Shown here piece after piece: positions 6,776 through 51,196 of a stretch of 54,479 nt of DNA. A program made the position numbers and the translations under genes. Source of the DNA: Dehalococcoidales bacterium (GTDB lineage: Bacteria > Chloroflexota > Dehalococcoidia > Dehalococcoidales > BS750m-G39); assembly GCA_022865485.1 (NCBI GenBank), contig JALHSZ010000013.1:1-54479 (forward strand), read 5' to 3'. Numbering within the stretch: the first letter of the stretch is position 1; the number at the start of each line of letters is the position of its first letter. Below the pieces are notes generated by a model that saw only the letters and a program-made list of their open reading frames with translations, had not been told where the DNA came from and searched no databases.

Positions 6776-6806
6776 TAAAATAGTAAAGTAATAGAGTAAA
6801 ACATTT

Positions 6807-6910
6807 CCTGAGACAGCGGGTGCCTTTAGGGGCTCAAAATAAATGCCTGCCGAGGACAAGAAGGATTTTAATGTAGGTCCTTGTGCGGCAGGCGCAAGGA
6901 CTTACTTTTT
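6807..6910 (+). promoter_or_regulatory. Ribosomal protein L10 leader with attenuator hairpin
   Basis: The region upstream of rplJ has the look of the L10 leader RNA family: a CTGAGACAGCGGGTGCC opening, then alternative stems. Stem A pairs 6845-6852 with 6886-6893 (8 bp, perfect). Stem B pairs 6877-6886 with 6892-6901 (10 bp with one G-U) and is followed by TTACTTTTT, so it looks like an intrinsic terminator. The two stems share bases and cannot coexist. By analogy with known L10 leaders, binding of L10(L12)4 would favour termination. Which form L10 binds here is inferred. Confidence 0.82.
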
Positions 6911-6925
6911 AGGGGGTGATGAATA

Positions 6926-11522: not shown

Positions 11523-11551
11523 TTGACAAATCATCCTGCCTGTGGTAAAGT
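11523..11551 (+). promoter_or_regulatory. Strong sigma-70 promoter for the CoA-transferase/dehydratase operon
   Basis: A perfect TTGACA (11523-11528), a 17-bp spacer and TAAAGT (11546-11551). The start would be near 11558, leaving a ~200-nt untranslated leader before the first gene. It is divergent from yifB. Confidence 0.75.
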
Positions 11552-11557
11552 CATTCC

Positions 11558-11756
11558 CAAGAAAGCTGGGTATATATAGAGTGTTAGAGAATATTGTCTC
11601 CCCAGGTTTATATTATACGGACTTCATATTTACCGGGCGCACCTAGTGCGCATCGGGGGGACGATATTGTGACAATCTAAAAGTAACTAAAAAATAAATT
11701 AGAAAGGTTTAAGGTTATCCCCCCCCAAGTGGGGGGAATTTTATTTATTAAGGGCT
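11558..11756 (+). promoter_or_regulatory. Structured 5' leader RNA, possible attenuator or riboswitch
   Basis: This gene-free leader can fold. A 14-bp stem pairs 11590-11603 with 11655-11668 (two G-U). Inside it is a 6-bp hairpin, 11637-11642/11646-11651. Further on, a C-run (11719-11726) and a G-run (11731-11736) form a hairpin followed by AATTTTATTTATT, which resembles a weak terminator. The G-run 11655-11660 in the main stem could instead pair with the C-run 11719-11726 and so prevent the terminator-like hairpin. I do not recognise a known riboswitch class. Regulation is inferred from the alternatives, and C/G runs pair promiscuously. Confidence 0.5.
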
Positions 11757-12992
11757 ATGAAAAATTCAAATAAAAACCAGAAGATGGCGGGACCTTTAGA
11801 CGGGGTTAGGGTGGTGGAAATAACCATGTTCCAGCAAGGGCCGGTTTGCGGCACGAAGCTGGGGGATTTGGGCGCCGACGTAATCAAAGTAGAGCCTCCT
11901 TCCGGGGACCCGGGGCGGGGTTTTATGAGGATTATCGGCACTATGGTCGGCTTGAAGGGACGGAATTACTACTTCGAGCAGCATAACCGCAACAAGAGGA
12001 GCGTCGTCCTGGATTTGAAACAGAAACGGGGCAAGGAGTTGTTCTTAAAGCTGATTGATGATGCTGATGTCTTCCTGACCAACATGAGCATAGAAGCGCC
12101 AAAGAAGATGGGCATCGGGCCTGATGTATTGATGAAGCGGAATCCGCGCCTGATTTAAGCCCAGGCTTCGGGCTGGGGCCGGAGGGGCCCCGACGCCAAC
12201 GAGCTTTCCTTTGACTATACCGGCATCGGGCGGGCAGGGCTGATGATGTCCTCCGGCGAGCGGGGCACTCCCCCCTCCCAGGTCTTGCCCGGGCTGGGCG
12301 ATGAGGTGGGGGGGATGGTCTGTGCCTGGGCAATTTGTGCCGCTCTCTATGCCCGGGAGAGGACGGGCAAAGGGCAACTGGTGGATACCTCGCTGATGGG
12401 CAGCCTGATTTGTATGGAAAGCCTGGTTTTATCGGCGCCGGCTATGCTGGGGCAGGAGTTCCCCAGGGAGATAAGGACCGAGGCGGGCAACCCCATCTAT
12501 AACCACTACAAGGCTAAAGACGGTAGGTGGTTTATCCTGGCTCACCTCCAGCCGGACCGCTACTGGGCTAACGCCTGTCGGGCGCTGGCTATGCCCGAGC
12601 TGGAGAACGACCCCCGCTTCAACAGCATAGAAGCCAGGGGACAGAATGCCAGAGAGCTTATAGCCATTATGGATGAGAAATTCGCCACCAAGACCAGAGA
12701 CGAGTGGTTCGATATTTTTAAGCGAGAGGGCTTAATTCACAGCCCTGTACAGACCCTCACCGAGGTCATCGATGACCCGCAGGCGTTGGCCAATGACTAC
12801 GTTAGCTGGTTCGACCACCCCGTCTTCGGCCGGACCAAGATGGTCGGTTTCCCCTGGGATTTCAGCCAGACCCCGGCCTCGATAAGGCGGGAAGCCCCGG
12901 AACTGGGCCAGCACACTGAGGAGATTTTATTGGAGATGGGGTATAATTGGGAAGATATCACCAAGTTGAAAACTGATGGAGTAATACCTTAA
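11757..12992 (+). pseudogene. CaiB/BaiF (class III) CoA-transferase interrupted by an in-frame TAA
   Basis: One continuous frame of 411 sense codons plus the internal stop matches a class III CoA-transferase, with the opening PLDGVRVVEIT and GDLGADVIKVEPPSGD. TAA at 12156-12158 (codon 134) falls within NPRLI-stop-AQASGWG, where the family usually has Tyr, so a single base change (TAT/TAC to TAA) explains it. The likely catalytic Asp (GAC 12213-12215) lies after the stop but before the next ATG (12243), so neither fragment (to 12158; from 12243) would be active alone. An alternative start is ATG 11784. It could be a true nonsense mutation, a sequencing error or readthrough. It heads the dehydratase operon. 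Confidence 0.85.
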
Positions 12993-13025: not shown

Positions 13026-14192
13026 ATGCCAGAGAAGGTTGCTCTTAAGGGGCTGGCGGCGGCGGATAAATACTACCAGGATTACGGCTTGAGAGCCAGA
13101 GAGCTCAAGAAGCAGGGTAAGAAAGTCATCGGCTACCTTTGTGCCTTTACGCCTGCGGAGATAATCACCGCCGCTGGCTTTATCCCCTTCCGCATAAAGG
13201 GTGATGTCGATGAGCCGATTACCAAGGCGGATACCGAGATGGAGACCATCATCTGCCCGCTGGTTCGCAGCTGCTTCGATATGGCGCTCAAGGGCAACTA
13301 CGAATTTCTGGACGGGTTGGTCGTCCCCCATGCCTGCGATAGTATCTGCCGCACCTACGATATCTGGAAATATACCCTCAATTTACCCTATTCCCATTTC
13401 ATCAATATGCCTCACGGCACCGATGACGCCTCTTTAGGCTTCTACCGCGAAGTTCTGGATACCTTCCGGACCAGCCTGGGCAAGTTTGCCGGCAAGGAAA
13501 TCTCCGACCAGGCGCTGGCTGGGGCAATCAAACTCCATAACCAGAATCGGGCTAAGGTAAAAGAGCTCTACCAGTTACGTAAGTCTTCTCCGCCCCTAAT
13601 CTCGGGTGAGGAACTGACCAAAGTATTGATTGCTGCCATGAGCCTGCCCGTTGAGGAATCTATTGAGATGCTGGGCGATGTCATCGCCGAGGTCAAGGGG
13701 AGGGGAGGGCTTTCCGCTCGGAAGCAAGCCCGAATAATGGTCATTGGCGCTCAGGTGGACGACATTGCCTTTATCAAGCTGATTGAGGACTCTGGCGCCT
13801 GGGTGGTGGCTGACGACCTCTGCCCCGGAGCCAGGGAGTTTTTGGCCTTGGTGGACGTTAGCGCCGACCCCCTGGCCGGGCTTGCCGAGCGCTATCTGCG
13901 GAAGGTAAAGTGCGGGCGGACCTACCGTGAAATGAAGGGCAACTACCAAGAATACCTGGAAGACAGGTTTGGGCACATGGGCCGTATGATTGACGATTTT
14001 GGGGTTGATGGGGTGGTGCTCTATATCTACAAGTACTGCGACCCCTACGGCTTCGAGGTGCCCCAGATAAAGAGCTATATCGAAGCTAAGGGCACCCCGG
14101 TGCTCTACCTCGAAGATGAGTATTCCATGTCCACCATTGGACGGTTGCGCACCCGAATCCAGGCTTTCCTGGAGCTGCTTGGCTCAAAATAG
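13026..14192 (+). CDS. 2-hydroxyacyl-CoA dehydratase/benzoyl-CoA reductase-type subunit (HgdB/BcrC/FldC-like)
   Basis: The 388-aa protein is of the HgdB/FldB-FldC/BcrB-BcrC superfamily. The cysteines expected to ligate a [4Fe-4S] cluster are visible in PHACDSICRTYD (about residues 104-115), DDLCPGAREF (about 262) and YKYCDPYGF (about 339). The enzyme would use one high-energy electron from an ATP-driven activase to remove water from a 2-hydroxyacyl-CoA, or to reduce an aromatic ring. A GGGGTGACGCT-type site precedes the ATG. The next subunit begins 22 bases on. Substrate class is not determined by the sequence. Confidence 0.87.
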   Translation: MPEKVALKGLAAADKYYQDYGLRARELKKQGKKVIGYLCAFTPAEIITAAGFIPFRIKGDVDEPITKADTEMETIICPLVRSCFDMALKGNYEFLDGLVVPHACDSICRTYDIWKYTLNLPYSHFINMPHGTDDASLGFYREVLDTFRTSLGKFAGKEISDQALAGAIKLHNQNRAKVKELYQLRKSSPPLISGEELTKVLIAAMSLPVEESIEMLGDVIAEVKGRGGLSARKQARIMVIGAQVDDIAFIKLIEDSGAWVVADDLCPGAREFLALVDVSADPLAGLAERYLRKVKCGRTYREMKGNYQEYLEDRFGHMGRMIDDFGVDGVVLYIYKYCDPYGFEVPQIKSYIEAKGTPVLYLEDEYSMSTIGRLRTRIQAFLELLGSK

Positions 14193-14214
14193 TCGAAGGT
14201 AAAGGAGAAACGGT

Positions 14215-15555
14215 ATGACTGAGGAGAAGAAGCCTGAGGAAAGAAAGAAGAGAAGGACAGCCACCGAGGCTGCCAGTAATATAGGGCCTATGGTTAAGAC
14301 TATGATCAGGGAGGTACTGGAAGCTAAGGAAACGAAGAAGCCTATAGCCTATTCTTTTATCTGCTGCTGTTACGACGAAATTATCCGGGCGATGGATATA
14401 GTGCCCCACTGGGTGGAAAACTACGCTGGCATCTGCGGGGCTAAGCGCGACGCCCAGCGCTTTTTGGAGAGGGCGGAGGCGGAGAATTTCTCCCGCTCCC
14501 TCTGCACCTATGCCCTTTGCGGTCTGGGCTTCGATGCCTGGCGCGAGGAGCTGGGCGAGATGCCCCCCGAATCCCCCTGGGGGGGACAGGTGAAACCGGA
14601 TGTCATGCTGGGCAGTGGCCAGATGCTCTGCGACCCCAGGAACAAGTGGTTTCAAGCCGCCCAGCACTATATGCCCGATGTTCCCGTCTATGACGTGGGG
14701 CTGCCCTGGCCTGCTTACGAGAGCGATTATGACTACCGTCAGGTGCAGGACTACTATGTGAAATATATCGTCAAAGAGCTAAAAGGGCTGGTTAAGTTCC
14801 TGGAGAAGCACACCGGCAAGAAGATGGACTGGGAGCGTTTGAGCGAGCTGGTCGCCCTCACCGACAAAACCTGGGACTTAATCTGGGAAACCTACGAGCT
14901 ACGTCGGGCGGTGCCTTCTCCCATGGGCACCGGCGATGCCATGAATACCATGGTGCCTATCGTCTTTATGATGGGTACCCAGCAAGCCTACGACTTCTTC
15001 CAGGATTTGAATAAGGAGCTAAAGCAAAAGATAGCCAATAAAGAGGGGGAGGTTCCCGACGAGAAATACCGGTTGCTGTGGGGTGGGGGACTGCCCGCCT
15101 GGTTCGCCTTGAGCGATTTTAACTACTTCAACAGCAAGGGGGCGGTCTTTCCCGTAGAGACCACCTACCGGATGATAGAGGCGACCTATAATTTCGACAT
15201 CGACCTGAGCCAGATTAGCGATCCTCTGGAGCATATCGCCTGGCGGTGGGTAAAATTCTGGACTTACTGGCACGACCGAGCCAGAAAGCGCCCCGGCTCT
15301 CACCCCGATGTGGAAAGGCTGATTAAGTATATCGAGGACTATAAGATAGACGGCATCGTGATGCACGAAGCCTTTTCCTGCCGTTCCTGGCACCCGGGCT
15401 TAATCTGGCAGTTGAATCTGCTGAAGAAGGTCTATCGCGATATCCCTTCGCTGGTCCTGGAGAGCGATATCGTCGATATCAGCTCCTATAACGAAGCCGA
15501 CACCAGAACCAGGATAGACGCCTTTATCGACACCCTGGAAGCGGTCAAGAGGTAG
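14215..15555 (+). CDS. 2-hydroxyacyl-CoA dehydratase/benzoyl-CoA reductase-type large subunit (BcrB/FldB-like)
   Basis: The 446-aa second subunit of the same superfamily has a charged N-terminal leader (first ~20 residues). Cysteines occur in FICCCYDE, AGICGAKRD and, near the C-terminus, HEAFSCRSWHPG. It pairs with the 13026 gene as the two dissimilar halves of the dehydratase or reductase core. Its length is nearer to BcrB (~50 kDa) than to a typical HgdA. It is six bases from the first activase. I infer a heterodimer. Confidence 0.84.
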   Translation: MTEEKKPEERKKRRTATEAASNIGPMVKTMIREVLEAKETKKPIAYSFICCCYDEIIRAMDIVPHWVENYAGICGAKRDAQRFLERAEAENFSRSLCTYALCGLGFDAWREELGEMPPESPWGGQVKPDVMLGSGQMLCDPRNKWFQAAQHYMPDVPVYDVGLPWPAYESDYDYRQVQDYYVKYIVKELKGLVKFLEKHTGKKMDWERLSELVALTDKTWDLIWETYELRRAVPSPMGTGDAMNTMVPIVFMMGTQQAYDFFQDLNKELKQKIANKEGEVPDEKYRLLWGGGLPAWFALSDFNYFNSKGAVFPVETTYRMIEATYNFDIDLSQISDPLEHIAWRWVKFWTYWHDRARKRPGSHPDVERLIKYIEDYKIDGIVMHEAFSCRSWHPGLIWQLNLLKKVYRDIPSLVLESDIVDISSYNEADTRTRIDAFIDTLEAVKR

Positions 15556-15561
15556 GGTTTT

Positions 15562-16404
15562 ATGAGCCAGTATTTTGCCGGTGTCGACATCGGTTCCACC
15601 ATGACCAAGGTGGTCATTATGAACCAGTCGGTGCTGGCTTCGGTCATCGGTCCTACGGGGCCGGAGCACCGCAAGCTGGCTAACCGGGTCATGGAAGAAG
15701 CCCTGGAGAAGGCAAAGCTGCCCTTCGAGGAAATAACCTATGTAGTGGCTACCGGCTACGGGAGAATCAATGTCCCCTTTGCCGATAAGCAGATAACCGA
15801 GATATCCTGCCACGCCAAGGGGGTGGCTTACCTGCTGCCCGAAGCGAGGACGGTAATTGACATCGGAGGCCAGGACAGCAAGGGGATTAAGCTCAAGGAT
15901 GGTCGGGCGGTGGACTTTGTCATGAACGACAAGTGCGCCGCAGGTACGGGCCGATTTTTAGAAGTAGCCGCCGAGGAGCTCGGCGTTAAGCTGGAGGATA
16001 TGGGCAAGCTATCGCTAGAGGCTAGAAATACGGTGAGGATAAGCAATACCTGCACCGTCTTTGCCACGCAGGAGGTGGTTGGCAAGCTGTCGGAGGGGGC
16101 GGCGCTGCCCGATATTGTCGCTGGCTTGCATGAAGCTATCGCCACCCGGATATACGGCATGTTGCGGCGGCTAAAGATAGAGCGAGAGGTGGCGTTGACG
16201 GGGGGTGGGGCCAAGAATATCGGGCTGGTCAGGGCACTGGAAGCCAAGCTGGGCTTTGCTGTGCTGGTGCCGCCCGAGCCGCTGCTTACCGGCGCGATAG
16301 GGGCGGCGCTGCTGGGTAAAGATATAGTCAAAGAGGCGGAGAAGAAGGGGACGCCTTTACCCAGAGCCGAGCGCCGCCTGCAAGAGGCGACTCTCTTTAC
16401 ATAA
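15562..16404 (+). CDS. Acyl-CoA dehydratase activase (BadF/BadG/BcrA/BcrD/HgdC family), canonical copy
   Basis: The 280-aa ASKHA-fold ATPase opens with the phosphate motif GVDIGSTMTK and has DIGGQDSK (Asp at residue 105). It carries both cluster cysteines, in DKCAAGTGRF (about residue 128) and NTCTVF (about 167). In HgdC these two cysteines from each subunit hold one [4Fe-4S] between the protomers. ATP hydrolysis lowers the cluster potential so an electron can be fired into the dehydratase. It overlaps nothing and is followed 18 bases later by a paralogue. Confidence 0.9.
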   Translation: MSQYFAGVDIGSTMTKVVIMNQSVLASVIGPTGPEHRKLANRVMEEALEKAKLPFEEITYVVATGYGRINVPFADKQITEISCHAKGVAYLLPEARTVIDIGGQDSKGIKLKDGRAVDFVMNDKCAAGTGRFLEVAAEELGVKLEDMGKLSLEARNTVRISNTCTVFATQEVVGKLSEGAALPDIVAGLHEAIATRIYGMLRRLKIEREVALTGGGAKNIGLVRALEAKLGFAVLVPPEPLLTGAIGAALLGKDIVKEAEKKGTPLPRAERRLQEATLFT

Positions 16405-16422
16405 CACGAGAATTTTAAAGCT

Positions 16423-17232
16423 ATGCTGTATGTTATCGGAGTAGATATCGGTTCCGCTTTTTCCAAAGCGGTGGTGATGGCCGGGGGCGAAATCGTCTCC
16501 CATCACATAATGCCCTCGGGGGGTAACTATAGGCTCACCGCCGAGGAAGTGGTCAAAAAGGCTCTGGCTAAAGCCAAACTGTCCTTTAAGGATACAGGCT
16601 ATATCGTCGCCACCGGCTACGGCGCCTCGAATGCTGCTTTCGCCAACGAGGTGGTTACCGACCTGTCCTGCCAGGGGAGGGGGGTATCCCACCTGTTCCC
16701 CTCGGCGCGGACGGTAATCGATATCGGCGGGCAGTTCACCAGAGTATCCCGGGTGAACGAGAAGGGTAAGGTTACCTCTTTCTTGCAGAGCGAGAAGTGC
16801 GCCGCCGGCAGCGGGCGCTTTCTGCAGGTTATTGCCAAGGTTTTGCAGATTGACCTCGAGGATATCGGCGAGCTATCGCTGAAATCCAAGAACAAGGTTG
16901 ATTTTAATACGGGCTGTGCCGTATTCGCCGAGTCGGAGGCGATATCCCGCATCGCCGAGGGCGCTCTAAAAGAGGATATTTTAGCCGGCCTTCACCGTAC
17001 CCTGGCGGCTAAAATCCAGAGCATGGTGGAGAGGGTAGGGCTTGAGCCCGATTGCGCGGTGGTGGGGGGTGGGGCTAAAGACATCGGGCTGGTCAAGAGC
17101 ATAGAACAAAGTTTAGCCTGTAAGCTTTTGCTGCCGGAAGAGCCGCAAATCGTGGCGGCTCTGGGGGCGGCTTTGATAGCTGAGGAAAAGGCAGTCCAGT
17201 CAAGGTCGGTCACTAATCTGAAGGGAGGTTAA
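16423..17232 (+). CDS. Second acyl-CoA dehydratase activase, diverged paralogue
   Basis: The 269-aa paralogue keeps GVDIGSAFSK and both cysteines (EKCAAGSGRF and NTGCAVF), so it could still share a [4Fe-4S] cluster. At residue 105 the GGQD motif reads GGQF: the Asp of the phosphate-2 motif is Phe. That residue normally helps in nucleotide and metal handling, so this subunit may hydrolyse ATP poorly. A BcrA/BcrD-like heterodimer with the canonical copy is a reasonable inference. Two separate homodimers remain possible. Confidence 0.86.
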   Translation: MLYVIGVDIGSAFSKAVVMAGGEIVSHHIMPSGGNYRLTAEEVVKKALAKAKLSFKDTGYIVATGYGASNAAFANEVVTDLSCQGRGVSHLFPSARTVIDIGGQFTRVSRVNEKGKVTSFLQSEKCAAGSGRFLQVIAKVLQIDLEDIGELSLKSKNKVDFNTGCAVFAESEAISRIAEGALKEDILAGLHRTLAAKIQSMVERVGLEPDCAVVGGGAKDIGLVKSIEQSLACKLLLPEEPQIVAALGAALIAEEKAVQSRSVTNLKGG

Positions 17233-17233
17233 C

Positions 17234-18622
17234 ATGGAGAAGAAGCTTAGAGCACAACTGGAGAAGATTGTGGGTAAGGGGGTGGTGCTAACCTCTAAGG
17301 AGGATCTGACCACCTATTCCTATGACGGCACCGCTACCTGGGCGCATATGCCCGAAGTAGTGGTGCTGCCGACTACCGCCGAGCAGGTGTCTCAGATTCT
17401 GAAGCTGGCTAACGACAACAAGATTCCGGTTACCCCCAGGGGCGCTGGCACCAATGTCAGCGGCGGCTCAATCCCGATAAAGGGTGGCATCGTCCTGTGT
17501 GCCACCAGGATGAATAAAATCCTGGATATAAATAAGACCAACCTCACCGCTACCGTCGAGCCCGGCGTCGTGCTGCAGGACTTTAACCTGGCGCTGGCCA
17601 AGCAGGGACTTTTCTATCCCCCCGACCCCCAAAGCTTCCTGGGTTGTACCATAGGCGGCACTGTGGCTGAGAACGCGGGCGGTCCCTACTGCGTAAAGTA
17701 CGGGGTGACCAAGCAGTATGTCCTCGGGCTGGAGGTGGTCTTAGCCAGCGGCTACATTATGAAGCTGGGTGGGGTGACGGTGAAGAACCGCACCGGATAT
17801 GAGCTGGCGATGCTTTTCACCGGCTCCGAGGGGACGTTGGGGGTAATCACCAAGATAACGCTGAAACTGATACCCATGCCGCAAGCCAGCAAGACGATGA
17901 TGGCCGTCTTCGATGATATGGTGGTGGGCGGACAGGCGGTATCCAACATACTTGCCAGCGGCGTGGTGCCGGCCAAGATTGAGTTCGTGGACAACTTCAT
18001 TCTGCGACGCATCGAGGAAATGATGCCGATGGGTCTGCCGGTAGATGCGCAGGCATTGCTTCTTATAATGGCCGACGGCTCTCCGGCGGCGGTTGAGGTG
18101 GAGGCCAAGCAGATTGTCGACACCCTGAAAAAGAGCGGGGCGAGAGAGGTTAAGGTAGCCAAAGACGCCGCTGAGGCGGCCAAGTACTGGAAGATGAGGA
18201 GCGCCGGCTTTGCCGCTACCTTCGGCGCGGCTAAGACGGTTTTGGCTGAGGATGTCGCCGTGCCCCGCGACAAGCTGGCGGAGTTTATCGGTAAGCTGGG
18301 AGAGATATCGGAGAGGACGGGTTTCTTCATCAGCCACCTGGGCCATGCCGGTGACGGCAATCTTCACCCGGCGATATTTACCGACGTCAGTGACAAAGAG
18401 AACTTCGCCAAGGCGCAGGAGGCGATGGAGGAGATATTCGAGGCGGCGCTTTCCCTGGGTGGCGTGCTCTCCGGTGAGCACGGTATCGGGCTGGAGAAAC
18501 AGCGCTTTCTGAAGAGGGCGATGGACCCGGTAGCCCTCAACCTGATGATAAAGATAAAGTCACTGCTTGATCCTAACCATATCCTCAATCCCGGTAAGAT
18601 ATGGGAGGAGGAGAGGGTGTGA
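17234..18622 (+). CDS. FAD-linked 2-hydroxyacid oxidase/dehydrogenase (GlcD-like)
   Basis: The 462-aa protein has the FAD_binding_4 (PCMH) domain with TPRGAGTNVSGGS (about residues 62-74) and a FAD-oxidase C-terminal domain with HAGDGNLHP and SGEHGIGLEKQ. The family oxidises glycolate, D-lactate and related D-2-hydroxyacids, or runs them in reverse with suitable electron carriers. It starts one base after the second activase and overlaps the next reading region closely, so it is in the same operon. I infer that it interconverts the 2-hydroxyacid of this pathway. Confidence 0.88.
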   Translation: MEKKLRAQLEKIVGKGVVLTSKEDLTTYSYDGTATWAHMPEVVVLPTTAEQVSQILKLANDNKIPVTPRGAGTNVSGGSIPIKGGIVLCATRMNKILDINKTNLTATVEPGVVLQDFNLALAKQGLFYPPDPQSFLGCTIGGTVAENAGGPYCVKYGVTKQYVLGLEVVLASGYIMKLGGVTVKNRTGYELAMLFTGSEGTLGVITKITLKLIPMPQASKTMMAVFDDMVVGGQAVSNILASGVVPAKIEFVDNFILRRIEEMMPMGLPVDAQALLLIMADGSPAAVEVEAKQIVDTLKKSGAREVKVAKDAAEAAKYWKMRSAGFAATFGAAKTVLAEDVAVPRDKLAEFIGKLGEISERTGFFISHLGHAGDGNLHPAIFTDVSDKENFAKAQEAMEEIFEAALSLGGVLSGEHGIGLEKQRFLKRAMDPVALNLMIKIKSLLDPNHILNPGKIWEEERV

Positions 18623-18623
18623 T

Positions 18624-19910
18624 ATGGCATTAACCGCTGACAGGTTTGAACAGATAAAGAGGTTCGAGAAGGACTTGAGCCAGTGCATGAAGTGTGGCTT
18701 TTGCACCTTCTGGTGCCCGGTCTATCAAGAGGAACGGATTGAAGCGTCGGTGGCGCGGGGCAAGAACATGATGATACGGGGGCTGCTGGCGGGTGAGCTG
18801 GACTATACCCAGGAGTATGCCGACCGCCTCAACAAGTGTACCCTTTGCATGACCTGCACGGCTAACTGCCCGGCTAAAGCCAACATCCCCAACGTCATCG
18901 TCGCCGCCAGGGCCGATGCGGTCAAAGCCAGGGGCTTAAATTTCCCCTACAATATCGTCTACCGTTGGCTCTTACCGCGGCGCCGTCTCTTCGGCTGGGT
19001 GGTGCGCTTCGCTTCCTGGTTCCAGGGCGTCTTTATGCCCAAGACCGAGGGCACCATCAGGCACCTTTCCATGTTCCTCTCGGCACTGGGCAAGGGACGG
19101 AATATACCCCAGATTGCCCCGAGGTTTTTAAGGCAGATGGTGCCGGTGGTGAACGTGCCGCCCGCCAGCGTTAAGACCAGGATGAGGGTGGGTTATTTCA
19201 GCGGCTGCATGACCGACTTTGTTCTGCCCCATCTCGGTAAGCATATAATCGACTTCCTGACCAGGAATGGGGTGGAGGTGGTGGTGCCCCGGGAGCAGGG
19301 GTGCTGCGGGGCGCCGGTATTTCTGGGTGCCGGTGATTTCGAAGCCGGCCGCAAGATGGCTGACGCCAATGTTAAAGCCTTCGAGGGGCTGGACTACGTT
19401 ATCTCCGACTGCGCTACCTGCACCTCGGCGCTTAAAGATTATGCCAAGTTTTTAGCCGACACCCCGCAGAGGAAGAAGGCTTACGAAAAGTTCGCCAAGA
19501 AGGTAAAGGATATTTCCGAGTTCTTGATTGACGTGCTGGATTTGCCGGCATCGGCTTATAAGCCCTCGGCGGTAGCCAAGGGCAAGAAGGTTAGTTGGCA
19601 CGACCCTTGTCACCTCAGTCGGCACCTGGGGATAACCAGCCAGCCGAGGCAGGTTATAAAGTCGATATCGGGGGTGGAGTACGTCGAGATGCCCAACGCC
19701 GACCGGTGTTGCGGTATGGCGGGGGCGTTCAGTATGCATTACTACGATTTGTCGAAGGAGATTGGCGACAAGAAGGCAGCTTCGATTAAGTCCACCGGTG
19801 CCGATATCGTTGTCAGCAGTTGCCCGGGGTGTGAGATTCAGCTCATTGACAGCCTGCTGCGGAACAAGGTGCCGGTGAAAGTGATGCACATTATGGAGCT
19901 GTTGGAATAG
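18624..19910 (+). CDS. GlcF/HdrD-like Fe-S oxidoreductase with two CCG domains
   Basis: The protein (428 aa) starts at ATG 18624, one base after the GlcD stop. Two [4Fe-4S] motifs lie near the N-terminus (CMKCGFCTFWCP and CTLCMTCTANCP). Two cysteine-rich CCG domains follow, one with GCCGAPVF and a later DCATC, the other with HDPCHLSRH, CCGMAGAF and SSCPGCE. GlcF-type partners pass electrons from the flavoprotein to a carrier. An in-frame start upstream (18567) would overlap GlcD by ~55 bases and is rejected. It ends convergently, three bases from iorB. Confidence 0.9.
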   Translation: MALTADRFEQIKRFEKDLSQCMKCGFCTFWCPVYQEERIEASVARGKNMMIRGLLAGELDYTQEYADRLNKCTLCMTCTANCPAKANIPNVIVAARADAVKARGLNFPYNIVYRWLLPRRRLFGWVVRFASWFQGVFMPKTEGTIRHLSMFLSALGKGRNIPQIAPRFLRQMVPVVNVPPASVKTRMRVGYFSGCMTDFVLPHLGKHIIDFLTRNGVEVVVPREQGCCGAPVFLGAGDFEAGRKMADANVKAFEGLDYVISDCATCTSALKDYAKFLADTPQRKKAYEKFAKKVKDISEFLIDVLDLPASAYKPSAVAKGKKVSWHDPCHLSRHLGITSQPRQVIKSISGVEYVEMPNADRCCGMAGAFSMHYYDLSKEIGDKKAASIKSTGADIVVSSCPGCEIQLIDSLLRNKVPVKVMHIMELLE

Positions 19911-19913
19911 TTT

Positions 19914-20519
19914 CTATTTGAGAGCTCGCCGACAGCTCTCATAGCCCAGGTCAAAGGCTTTCATATTAACAGGCGCCAGTTTAGCCGGGAAGCGTTCCTC
20001 GATGGCTTCTTTTATGGTGGATACTTTTATGGGCAGGCGCCCAGTGCCGAATAGTGCCCCCAGCATAGTAATGTTGGTGGTGAGCAGGCTGCCCGCTTCC
20101 TGAGCCAGTTTGGCGGCATCGAGCTGGATTACCCTTTCCGCGGCTTTATTCAGCTTTTCCAGTATTGCCTCTAGACTGGGGTAGCTGCTTTGCCCTAGGG
20201 GGACAGTGAAGGGCACGGTTACCGCCGTGTTGAGTATGACCAGGCTGGACTTGGAGAGGCAGGTGATATTTCTCAACGCCTCCGATGGCTCCATGCCGAC
20301 CAGAGCGCTGCACTTGCTGGTGGGGATGAGGGGGCCGTAGACATCTTCGCCGAGCCTGATGGCGCTGGTTACCGAGCCACCCCTCACCGCCATGCCCAGT
20401 ATCTCCGAGCCCCTGACCTTTAACTGGTCTTTGACCGCTGCCTCTCCCAGAAGCTCCGAAATCAGAATTACACCCTGCCCCCCGACCCCGGTGATCAGCA
20501 CGTTGAATTCTTTTGTCAT
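19914..20519 (-). CDS. iorB: Indolepyruvate ferredoxin oxidoreductase beta subunit
   Basis: The 201-aa protein is the gamma-type (POR_N/KOR gamma) subunit, with GVGGQGVILISELLGEAA near its start and the VRGGSVTSAIR stretch. Its ATG overlaps the iorA stop by four bases (ATGA), which indicates translational coupling. With IorA it oxidises arylpyruvates to arylacetyl-CoA and reduces ferredoxin. It ends three bases from the convergent glcF-like gene. Confidence 0.93.
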   Translation of the reverse strand: MTKEFNVLITGVGGQGVILISELLGEAAVKDQLKVRGSEILGMAVRGGSVTSAIRLGEDVYGPLIPTSKCSALVGMEPSEALRNITCLSKSSLVILNTAVTVPFTVPLGQSSYPSLEAILEKLNKAAERVIQLDAAKLAQEAGSLLTTNITMLGALFGTGRLPIKVSTIKEAIEERFPAKLAPVNMKAFDLGYESCRRALK

Positions 20520-22420
20520 TGGCTCACCTCTATTATCGCTTTGTAGGGGCAGACCTGGGCGCAGATTCCGCAGCCGGTGCAAAGTGCCTGGTCGATGATG
20601 GTCTTGCCGTCCTCTTTGATTATTGCCGGGCAGCCCAGAAGCTCGATGCAGGCGTTGCATTTGCCGCTGCACTTATCCTGGTCTACGAAGTAAGGGATAA
20701 TCGGTTCTTTTCGTTTCCGCTTCTCCCGCTGGTCGATCATGGTGCAGAGCCTTCGGGAGACGACGACGGCTGGACCATCGAACCTTATGGCGGCTTCTAT
20801 GGTCTTGGCGGCCGCTTTCAGGTCGAAGGGGTCGATAACCTCGACGAACTTTACCCCGCAGGCTCGGGCGATATCCTCCGGCTTTAGCTGGACGGTCTCC
20901 TCGCCCATAGCGGTGTGGCCGGTGCCGGGGTGGGGTTGGAAGCCGGTCATGGCCGTGGCCGAGTTATCCAGTATGACCATGGTTATGTTTGCCTTGTTGT
21001 AGACGGCGTTTATCAGGGGCGGTATGCCGGCGTGGAAGAAGGTTGAATCGCCCAGGTGGGCTACTATCGGTGCATCGACCACATGGGACAGCCCGTTGGC
21101 GATGCCGAAGCTGCCGCCCATACAGATGGTGGTATCTACCGCCTCCAGCGGTGGGTTATAAGCCAGAGCGTAGCAGCCGATATCGCCGGGGTAGATAGCC
21201 TCTACATCCTGGCCGTAGTCCCTGGCTACCCTTTTCGAGGCGGTCTTGATAGCGTAGAAAGAAGCCCGGTGAGAACAACCGGGACACAGAGCGGGTGGCC
21301 TCCAGGGGAGGAGGGGGGTTGTCTCTTCAGCCAGCTTGTCCAGCCTGGCAAAGTCAACCGGCGACTTGGCTCCGGTCAGCTTGATGACAGCCTCGGTGAC
21401 CTTCCTCGTGGATAGTTCGCCAACCCGCGGCAGCAGGTCCTTGCCGTGGATTTTAACCGCTATATTGTGTTCGCCGGCGATGGCTTTGACATGAAGCTCG
21501 ACAAAGGGGTCGATTTCCTCGGTCACCAGTACCTCCTTGACCGATTTCAGCAGCTTTATCACCAGCTCTTCAGGCAGGGGGTGGGGGGTGCCTATCTTCA
21601 GTATTGAGACCTTGTCCTCAATGCCCAGCCACTTCAACGCTTCCAGGGTGTAGCTGTATGATAGCCCGCAGCCGATAACACCCAGTTTGGCGCCACGGAC
21701 CAGCTTTAGCTGATTGTAGGGTAGGGTGTTGACTGCTTTCTTTATGGCGTCGAACCTTTCCAGCATCAGGGGCTTGTTTATCCTGGCTTCGCGGGGGGTA
21801 TAGACCAGCCAGTCGCGGTTTTTTACGAACTTGCCTTTTCTCTTTTCCCTCGATATTTTGCCCAGCACGATGTCGCTACGGGCGTGGCCTATTCGGGTTA
21901 CCGACCTGAGCATGAAAAGCTGCCGGAACTGCTCGGATAATTTAAAAGCGTCAGCCATCATATCTTTGGCTTCCTGCACGGAAGAAGGCTCCAGGACGGG
22001 CATGTAGGCTTGCAGGGCGATATAGCGGTTGTCCTGCTCGTTCTGGGAGCTCCATGCCCAGGGGTCGTCGGCGGAGAGCAGGACCAGCCCTCCCTTAGCC
22101 CCGATGTAGTTGGCGGTTATCAGCGAGTCGTGAGCTACGTTTACCCCGACATGCTTCATCGATGCCATGGCTCTCACCCCGCAGATGGAGGCGGCCAGGG
22201 CAACCTCGAAGGCTACCTTCTCGTTGACTGACCACTCCACGTACATCTCAAGCTCTTTGGCAACTCCAGCCAGAGTTTCCAGTATCTCGCTGGACGGGGT
22301 GCCGGGGTAGGCGGCGGCTACCTGGACTCCAGCCTCTATAGCCCCCCTGGCGATGGCTTCGTTACCCAAGACAAAGATTCTTTCTCCGGGGGCGTCTGAG
22401 GTAATGGTTAATTCTTTCAA
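20516..22420 (-). CDS. iorA: Indolepyruvate ferredoxin oxidoreductase alpha subunit
   Basis: The 634-aa protein has an N-terminal pyrimidine-binding half (FVLGNEAIARGAIEAGV), a C-terminal TPP-binding region (GDIGCYALA and HLGDSTFFH, about residues 400-450), and a final ferredoxin segment with two cysteine clusters (CSGKCNACIELLGCP and CTGCGICAQVCP). The start is TTG behind GGAGG. In archaea and clostridia this enzyme degrades Phe, Tyr and Trp after transamination. Its closeness to the dehydratase operon suggests shared aromatic substrates and ferredoxin exchange. Confidence 0.95.
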   Translation of the reverse strand: MKELTITSDAPGERIFVLGNEAIARGAIEAGVQVAAAYPGTPSSEILETLAGVAKELEMYVEWSVNEKVAFEVALAASICGVRAMASMKHVGVNVAHDSLITANYIGAKGGLVLLSADDPWAWSSQNEQDNRYIALQAYMPVLEPSSVQEAKDMMADAFKLSEQFRQLFMLRSVTRIGHARSDIVLGKISREKRKGKFVKNRDWLVYTPREARINKPLMLERFDAIKKAVNTLPYNQLKLVRGAKLGVIGCGLSYSYTLEALKWLGIEDKVSILKIGTPHPLPEELVIKLLKSVKEVLVTEEIDPFVELHVKAIAGEHNIAVKIHGKDLLPRVGELSTRKVTEAVIKLTGAKSPVDFARLDKLAEETTPLLPWRPPALCPGCSHRASFYAIKTASKRVARDYGQDVEAIYPGDIGCYALAYNPPLEAVDTTICMGGSFGIANGLSHVVDAPIVAHLGDSTFFHAGIPPLINAVYNKANITMVILDNSATAMTGFQPHPGTGHTAMGEETVQLKPEDIARACGVKFVEVIDPFDLKAAAKTIEAAIRFDGPAVVVSRRLCTMIDQREKRKRKEPIIPYFVDQDKCSGKCNACIELLGCPAIIKEDGKTIIDQALCTGCGICAQVCPYKAIIEVSQ

Positions 22421-50653: not shown

Positions 50654-51196
50654 ATGCGGAAAAGTAAGGCGATGACGAAGAAATGCCCGAACTGTGGTCA
50701 AAGGACTATAGTAGATGATACGTGGTCATGTCAGTGGTGTCATTGGCCGCTGATGGCTAAACCCTTACGTGGAATAAGCCAAGAAAAGAATGCAAAGCGG
50801 TCTGTACTGCCTCTTTGGGTGTTAATTGACGCTGCTATATTAGCCGTATTGTATGTGTTGTTGTTATTCGCCCTAAAAGATTGGGAGTTGTCGGCATTCC
50901 TGCAGATGTTAAGGGAGCAATGGTATATCTTATTGTTGCTGTTATTTCTAGCAATCTCTATCCCCTTTTTATTTAATCTTTTAGTTACTTGGATTTCGCC
51001 GAAGTTTATATTTGTTGTTCTGATATTACTGGGATTCCTATTGTTATATGCTTCAAGCAATGGATCTTTATTCCAACAGAACATCGCTGAATGGATTAAG
51101 GAAAGGTGGAATATTAGCCTGTTTTCAGCCTCCATTACTGTTCTTTCGCTCGCTTTTACCTTTGGAGTTATAGTTGTTGGTAGGAAAAACGAATAG
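50654..51196 (+). CDS. Zinc-ribbon four-helix membrane protein, unknown function
   Basis: The 180-aa protein has an N-terminal zinc ribbon (CPNCGQ...CQWCHWP, about residues 11-30). Four membrane helices follow (about 50-70, 83-104, 111-130 and 155-175) with short loops. I do not recognise the family. The DNA is more AT-rich than the surroundings. The start could be ATG 50654 (leaderless) or 50672 (with a weak site). It is followed by endonuclease V in the same direction. Confidence 0.72.
   Translation: MRKSKAMTKKCPNCGQRTIVDDTWSCQWCHWPLMAKPLRGISQEKNAKRSVLPLWVLIDAAILAVLYVLLLFALKDWELSAFLQMLREQWYILLLLLFLAISIPFLFNLLVTWISPKFIFVVLILLGFLLLYASSNGSLFQQNIAEWIKERWNISLFSASITVLSLAFTFGVIVVGRKNE

Follow-up and report, generated by a model that had tools for sequence, protein, structure and literature searches.

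Background

The pheA and pheST operons of enterobacteria are controlled by attenuators in which short, Phe-rich leader peptides, pheL and pheM, are combined with a terminator and an antiterminator. In other bacterial groups, His attenuators have been predicted in Firmicutes (PMC9413887) and trp/ilv attenuators have been described in Actinobacteria (PMC1262725). For Dehalococcoides, the rdhA motif has been presented as a structured RNA candidate upstream of reductive dehalogenase genes (PMC11109978).

In this work we analyze a leader located in a contig of a Dehalococcoidales bacterium (JALHSZ010000013.1; hereafter the window, meaning the whole stretch of 54,479 nucleotides) and its homologues. 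We hold it very probable that the element is a classical ribosome-mediated transcription attenuator sensing charged tRNA-Phe/tRNA-Tyr, operating by the mechanism familiar from trp, his and phe leaders. It resembles the enterobacterial pheA/pheST attenuators (RF01859) in its Phe-rich leader peptide, its terminator and antiterminator and its aromatic biosynthesis and pheST targets, but it shares no homology with them, belongs to another phylum, is dominated by Tyr codons in several leaders and carries a core sequence that is common to unrelated operons. With the his and trp attenuators (PMC9413887, PMC1262725) it has in common a leader peptide with regulatory codons, attenuator and terminator hairpins and an alternative antiterminator; it differs from them in amino acids and taxa, and its his-operon leader, directly before hisC, counts Tyr/Phe and not His. 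Like Tyr/Phe T-box leaders it would sense tRNA charging and control termination ahead of aromatic amino acid genes, but the proposed sensing requires translation instead of direct tRNA binding. The rdhA motif, too, is a candidate structured RNA ahead of a gene in this order, but the genes are different ones and the passages drawn on here describe no leader peptide (PMC11109978); the rdhA motif that a Breaker-laboratory survey covering Dehalococcoides presents in its main text is thus a different element.

Rfam searches of the window and 16 homologous loci, at gathering and permissive thresholds, returned nothing relevant and no match to any riboswitch model or to the T-box covariance model; RF01859 (Phe_leader) scored 15.1 bits in the window, below its gathering score of 55. 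The initial annotation's judgement that no known class fits the leader is thereby borne out at the level of covariance models. A full-text literature search, made mostly in papers outside subscription journals, yielded no report of such an attenuator for Dehalococcoides or Chloroflexota. As far as that literature reaches, no Phe/Tyr attenuator regulon seems to have been described in Chloroflexota before.

Methods

Leader statistics were compiled on 119 homologous leaders, with the reading frame anchored on a conserved TTC codon. Three loci were left out of the statistics: L234 and L235, doubtful matches that show no credible leader ORF, and the truncated match L229, in which the frame lacks an anchor.

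Results

The leader of the window comprises the following elements:

11523..11551, + strand: sigma-70-type promoter with extended TG (TTGACA 11523-11528, 17-nt spacer, TAAAGT 11546-11551)
11581..11646, + strand: leader-peptide ORF of 21 codons, GTG start, TAG stop, encoding MLENIVSPGLYYTDFIFTGRT; frame conserved in homologues
11590..11603, + strand: segment 1, the P1 5′ arm, within the leader ORF (fold; own-versus-permuted pairing)
11611..11616, + strand: tandem Tyr codons TAT TAT, putative stall site (sequence; in-frame Tyr/Phe enrichment in homologues)
11623..11631, + strand: conserved Phe-X-Phe codons TTC ATA TTT, putative stall site
11637..11651, + strand: P2 hairpin GCGCAC-CTA-GTGCGC (fold prediction; aligned homologous leaders)
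11655..11668, + strand: segment 2, G-run and P1 3′ arm, with the terminator 5′ arm as alternative partner
11718..11726, + strand: segment 3, C-run and terminator 5′ arm, with 11655-11661 as antiterminator partner (homologues with compensatory changes)
11718..11748, + strand: intrinsic terminator TCCCCCC-CCAAGT-GGGGGGA and T-rich tail

The P1 helix joins AATATTGTCTCCCC (11590-11603) to GGGGGGACGATATT (11655-11668) through 14 pairs, two of them G-U, and is present in both the MFE and the centroid fold; the terminator hairpin pairs C8 (11719-11726) with G6 (11731-11736) and is followed by ATTTTATTTATT. Compared with dinucleotide shuffles, the whole leader is unusually stable (z = -3.2, with 1 of 200 shuffles equally stable), as is the interval 11558-11700 (z = -3.5, 0 of 200). 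A short Tyr/Phe ORF, a coding layer absent from the initial annotation, takes up the 5′ half of the leader, and the P1 5′ arm lies within it. The ORF begins with GTG, without a clear Shine-Dalgarno sequence, and its stop codon precedes the G-run; in the homologous leader L134 the start is ATG (MKENIVSPGLYFTDFIFSGRT...). A short coding gene overlapping its own attenuator can, as this case cautions, hide behind the appearance of an orphan riboswitch.

When the genome that contains the window (1.19 Mb, 52 contigs) was searched at the DNA level, a 31-base match to the leader core emerged on another contig, belonging to a complete leader with promoter, P1, core (TTCATATTTACCGGGCGCA) and terminator between hisD and a hisC-like gene:

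G000:C37, about 16537-16740: second attenuator copy (L002, L004), flanked by hisD and hisC; its leader peptide contains YYYAFIF

The full peptide of this copy is MLNTTFHSYYYAFIFTGRNRALGG. The P1 and terminator sequences differ between the two copies, with pairing retained and the core the same. These are the only two strong copies in the genome, each before an operon; a third, weak match (27 bases, 50964-50990) lacks the core, and a mobile or repeat element was rejected on these grounds. Beyond this genome, the core occurs with at most two mismatches in 51 of 151 related genomes, as against one match for a reversed control pattern, and a covariance model of the core matches 109 of 156 genomes of the order Dehalococcoidales (E<=0.01). 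Outside the order the model found almost nothing; in a class-wide sample, its strong matches there were limited to one family (G367, G421). Exact-pattern matches in public records fall mostly within Dehalococcoidales/Dehalococcoidia; the four found outside the order (Rheinheimera, L044; Comamonas, L049; Chloroflexus, L051; Acetatifactor, L057) could be due to chance, and a viral collection held no exact match to the core pattern.

Read in the TTC frame, the homologous leaders encode short peptides beginning 24-51 bases upstream of the TTC. Between positions -48 and -24, the 119 leaders contain 132 ATGs in frame and 4 out of frame (p about 3e-57, not corrected for relatedness), and the frame is open from -36 to +18 in 116 of them, compared with 62 and 65 for the other two frames; none of the leader counts given here (ATGs, open frames, codons) is corrected for genome relatedness. 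Within the eight codons upstream of the core, Phe/Tyr codons make up 42% of in-frame positions in aro leaders and 50% in hisC leaders, versus 5-9% in the other frames, and 14% versus 5-7% in the acyl-CoA synthetase class. The leaders of the CoA-transferase operons, taken alone, show no significant excess (13/64 against 25/128 in the other frames). Codon 0 is TTC, TTT or TAC and codon 2 is TTT in 119 of 119 leaders, a constancy that arises partly by construction, the core having served as search model; start codons, the open frame and most Tyr/Phe codons fall outside that model, and the in-frame signal is therefore not a search artefact. Representative peptides include an extreme hisC leader, MLIYTTAHYYYYYYYYAFTGRTGTLGG, an aro operon leader, MLTDTTLSKFYYTYFTFTWRTKCAGEASP, and a Dehalococcoides-like leader, MKYAGYTYFYFMFTGRTLCALSGAADE (L165). 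The last belongs to genus g15, whose complete genomes (1.36-1.52 Mb, with 20-27 reductive dehalogenase matches) fit Dehalococcoides; its leaders L162, L165 and L166 have at least seven Tyr/Phe codons and stand ahead of an acyl-CoA synthetase and Liv-type transporter operon.

The same promoter type precedes 112 of the 119 homologous leader ORFs, and strong Shine-Dalgarno motifs are found ahead of a minority of their starts. Many homologous leaders place the ATG just 6-14 bases past the -10 box, most of them without a strong Shine-Dalgarno sequence. This layout suggests that translation of the leader peptide may be leaderless or near-leaderless in many homologues.

The G-rich segment TGCGCTTGGG stays conserved whichever of the three reading frames it occupies relative to the ORF (46/44/26), which indicates that segment 2 (UGCGCUUGGG...) is kept as RNA and not as peptide. 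A terminator was found in 115 of the 119 leaders, and in most of these segment 2 can pair with the 5′ arm and loop of the terminator (CCUCCCAAGCG), with compensating variants such as GCUUAGAGG/CCUCUAAGC, CGCUGGGGAGG/CCUCCCCAGCG and GCCGGGGG/UCCCCGGC. Among 62 dereplicated leaders, own-leader duplexes were more stable than permuted ones both for P1 (-18.1 versus -15.1 kcal/mol) and for the antiterminator (-19.8 versus -18.2 kcal/mol), and 0 of 1000 permutations did as well in either case. For P2, 91% of cells pair in 94 aligned leaders, and four of seven pairs have both sides changed, in 8 cells; this covariation alone is modest, so the argument from covariation rests on P1 and the antiterminator. 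The initial annotation had anticipated much of this architecture from a single sequence, proposing a near-consensus promoter, the 14-bp stem, a terminator-like hairpin, exclusive pairing of the G-run with the C-run and, from these, an attenuator or riboswitch ahead of a CoA-transferase/dehydratase-type operon. The promoter (10 of 12 consensus matches) and both hairpins lie where it placed them, and the homologous leaders, aligned for compensatory changes, retain the mutually exclusive helices.

The genes behind the attenuator were surveyed across the order. At 70 loci, including Dehalococcoides-like ones, the first gene encodes an acyl-CoA synthetase of the AMP-binding type, and genes for Liv-type permeases and a binding protein come next. 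At 19 clustered loci it encodes DAHP synthase, followed by aroB, aroD, aroE, aroK and aroA, so that aroF-B-D-E-K-A behind the attenuator amounts to the whole shikimate pathway; a few further aro loci have variant first genes. The remaining associations comprise hisC and hisB (10 loci), a CoA-transferase with two HGD-D subunits and two ATPases (8 loci, the window included), pheS and pheT (3 loci) and an octopine-dehydrogenase-like gene with a TrpX-like binding protein (2 loci). Judging by their predicted functions, the downstream genes converge on Phe/Tyr. HisC doubles as a Tyr/Phe aminotransferase in Bacillus subtilis, a role that would account for finding a Tyr/Phe leader within his genes. 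In L214 and L224, an HMGL-like aldolase replaces DAHP synthase before aroB, behind the attenuator, and is possibly an alternative first step. In L136, the leader lies ahead of two metallo-beta-lactamase-fold proteins and an HGD-D-type protein.

In the window, the genes predicted to be under its control are:

11757..12992, + strand: CoA-transferase family III gene, split by an in-frame TAA (12157-12159)
13026..17232, + strand: two HGD-D/Bzd-type subunits and two BadF/BcrA-type ATPases, aryl-CoA reductase- or dehydratase-like (Pfam; PDB)
17234..19910, + strand: FAD-linked oxidase (GlcD-like) and Fe-S oxidoreductase, presumed operon end

Because the L149 and L150 homologues are uninterrupted, the TAA points to a nonsense mutation, a pseudogene or an erroneous assembly of this MAG. 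The genes at 13026-17232 match BzdN and BzdO in PDB (the nearest chains), as well as 2-hydroxyisocaproyl-CoA dehydratase and activators, and the second ATPase was assigned by operon order and homologue cluster c10. Their layout, with two HGD-D subunits and two ATPases, is that of a Bzd-type benzoyl-CoA reductase rather than that of a dehydratase with one activator. Same-strand orientation and tight spacing suggest co-transcription through 17234-19910. On the minus strand, convergent with the operon, 19914-22420 carries indolepyruvate:ferredoxin oxidoreductase-like genes, consistent with aryl-pyruvate metabolism. Elsewhere in the window, rplJ is preceded at 6789-6916 by a ribosomal protein L10 leader (Rfam RF00557, 59 bits).

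The acyl-CoA synthetase and window operons may supply Phe/Tyr from aryl acids, with aryl-CoA activation, reductive carboxylation by the 19914-22420 genes or cinnamoyl-CoA-type hydration as candidate routes. Aromatic compound catabolism has been proposed for marine Dehalococcoidia (PMC4959651).

Discussion

The computed leader ORF and its frame, the codon bias, the covarying helices, the terminator, the promoter and the gene associations are the basis for a model of translation, stalling, termination and readthrough in the cell. RNA polymerase would start just past the promoter at 11523-11551, and a ribosome would translate the 21-codon ORF. When charged tRNA-Tyr or tRNA-Phe is scarce, the ribosome would stall at TAT TAT or at TTC ATA TTT and cover the 5′ arm of P1 and/or P2; at the tandem Tyr codons, it would cover the CTCCCC of the P1 5′ arm, with which the G-run is otherwise paired. 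The freed G-run (11655-11661) could then pair with the C-run (11718-11724) as an antiterminator, blocking the terminator and allowing the operon to be transcribed. With charged tRNAs, or without translation, the G-run would be held by P1 and P2 or covered by the ribosome at the stop codon, so that the terminator (11718-11737) would form and transcription would end ahead of the CoA-transferase gene.

Simple MFE models with an assumed ribosome footprint, in which RNA behind and under the ribosome is removed, place the antiterminator in 112 of 115 nascent leaders with the ribosome at the TTT codon and the terminator in 109 of 115 free full-length leaders; with the ribosome at the stop codon, 74 of 115 leaders form the terminator, 20 neither structure and 21 the antiterminator. 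Since the G-run of the window lies beyond the stop codon, a ribosome halted at that codon still permits the antiterminator in the predicted fold. In the charged state P1 would accordingly have to re-form after ribosome release, which must be assumed and is the weakest step for the window copy. Also weighing against the model are the GTG start and unclear Shine-Dalgarno sequence of the window ORF, the small share of homologous starts with a strong Shine-Dalgarno motif, the missing Tyr/Phe excess in the CoA-transferase leaders and the paucity of such codons beyond Phe-X-Phe in many acyl-CoA synthetase leaders. Three features that characterize attenuators of this class are found here: a leader ORF with regulatory codons after a promoter (the link to Phe/Tyr supply being conjectural for the window operon), an intrinsic terminator between leader ORF and first gene (in the window and in 115 of 119 leaders) and an exclusive antiterminator that a stalled ribosome would free, as indicated by pairing, covariation and the folding model. 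Translation of the leader and a rise in readthrough on starvation would be expected in addition.

A coding core in fixed frame with Tyr/Phe codons, located ahead of aromatic amino acid and pheST genes, makes the charging of tRNA-Tyr/tRNA-Phe, read by the translating ribosome, the most likely signal. The same observations give no support to the acyl-CoA or redox signal suggested by the initial annotation; its other suggestion, an aromatic acid, guessed well as regards "aromatic", with tRNA charging now the likeliest form of the signal. We think it unlikely, if conceivable, that the shared core UUC-NNN-UUU-ACC-NG-GCGC...UGCGCUUGGG acts together with the ribosome or a nascent F-X-F-T peptide as a dedicated sensor beyond codon counting, which would let one module be copied before unrelated operons across the order, including aryl-acid uptake and activation operons with few Phe/Tyr codons.

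An arrest peptide of the TnaC or SpeFL type would offer another role for the translated leader, with the F-X-F-T-G-R-T end stalling the ribosome on free Phe or another aromatic compound and thereby controlling the terminator. The short conserved peptide F-X-F-T-X-R and the many acyl-CoA synthetase leaders with few Phe/Tyr codons apart from F-X-F speak for this possibility, but the residues following F-X-F derive from RNA conserved in all three frames, on which ground their conservation as an arrest peptide was rejected. Furthermore, the aromatic codons of aro and hisC leaders come in runs of variable length and order, as codon counting predicts, and arrest by excess amino acid has the wrong sign for biosynthesis and pheST genes; we regard this explanation as highly unlikely.

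We give very little credence to a metabolite-binding riboswitch, in which the UUCAUNUUUACC/P2 core would be an aptamer for Phe, Tyr or aryl-CoA controlling the same terminator. In its favour are mutually exclusive helices, which had led the initial annotation to name a riboswitch beside an attenuator, and a core whose primary sequence is strongly conserved from one operon type to another, but the "aptamer-like" core is coding sequence, in which a fixed frame, in-frame starts and in-frame Tyr/Phe codons would be needless. A variable codon 1 within the core and a free P2 loop length are also unlike a binding pocket, and Rfam offers no match; the riboswitch was rejected on the reading-frame statistics of the 119 leaders. 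To take the inverted repeats for sites in the DNA, as operators or a mobile element, and the fold for incidental is almost certainly wrong, for although P1 is a long inverted repeat near a promoter, its sequence changes between leaders with the pairing kept, the order of pieces and downstream genes is constant, and the genome has two copies only, both ahead of operons.

Conclusions

If ribosome-mediated attenuation is governed by Phe/Tyr codons, then Phe/Tyr supply should be the role of two operons, the one for acyl-CoA synthetase and Liv-type transporter in Dehalococcoides and Dehalogenimonas relatives and the aryl-CoA reductase-like one in the window. These predictions are testable in cultured, bioremediation-relevant strains, for which the leaders L162, L165 and L166 would provide a practical system.
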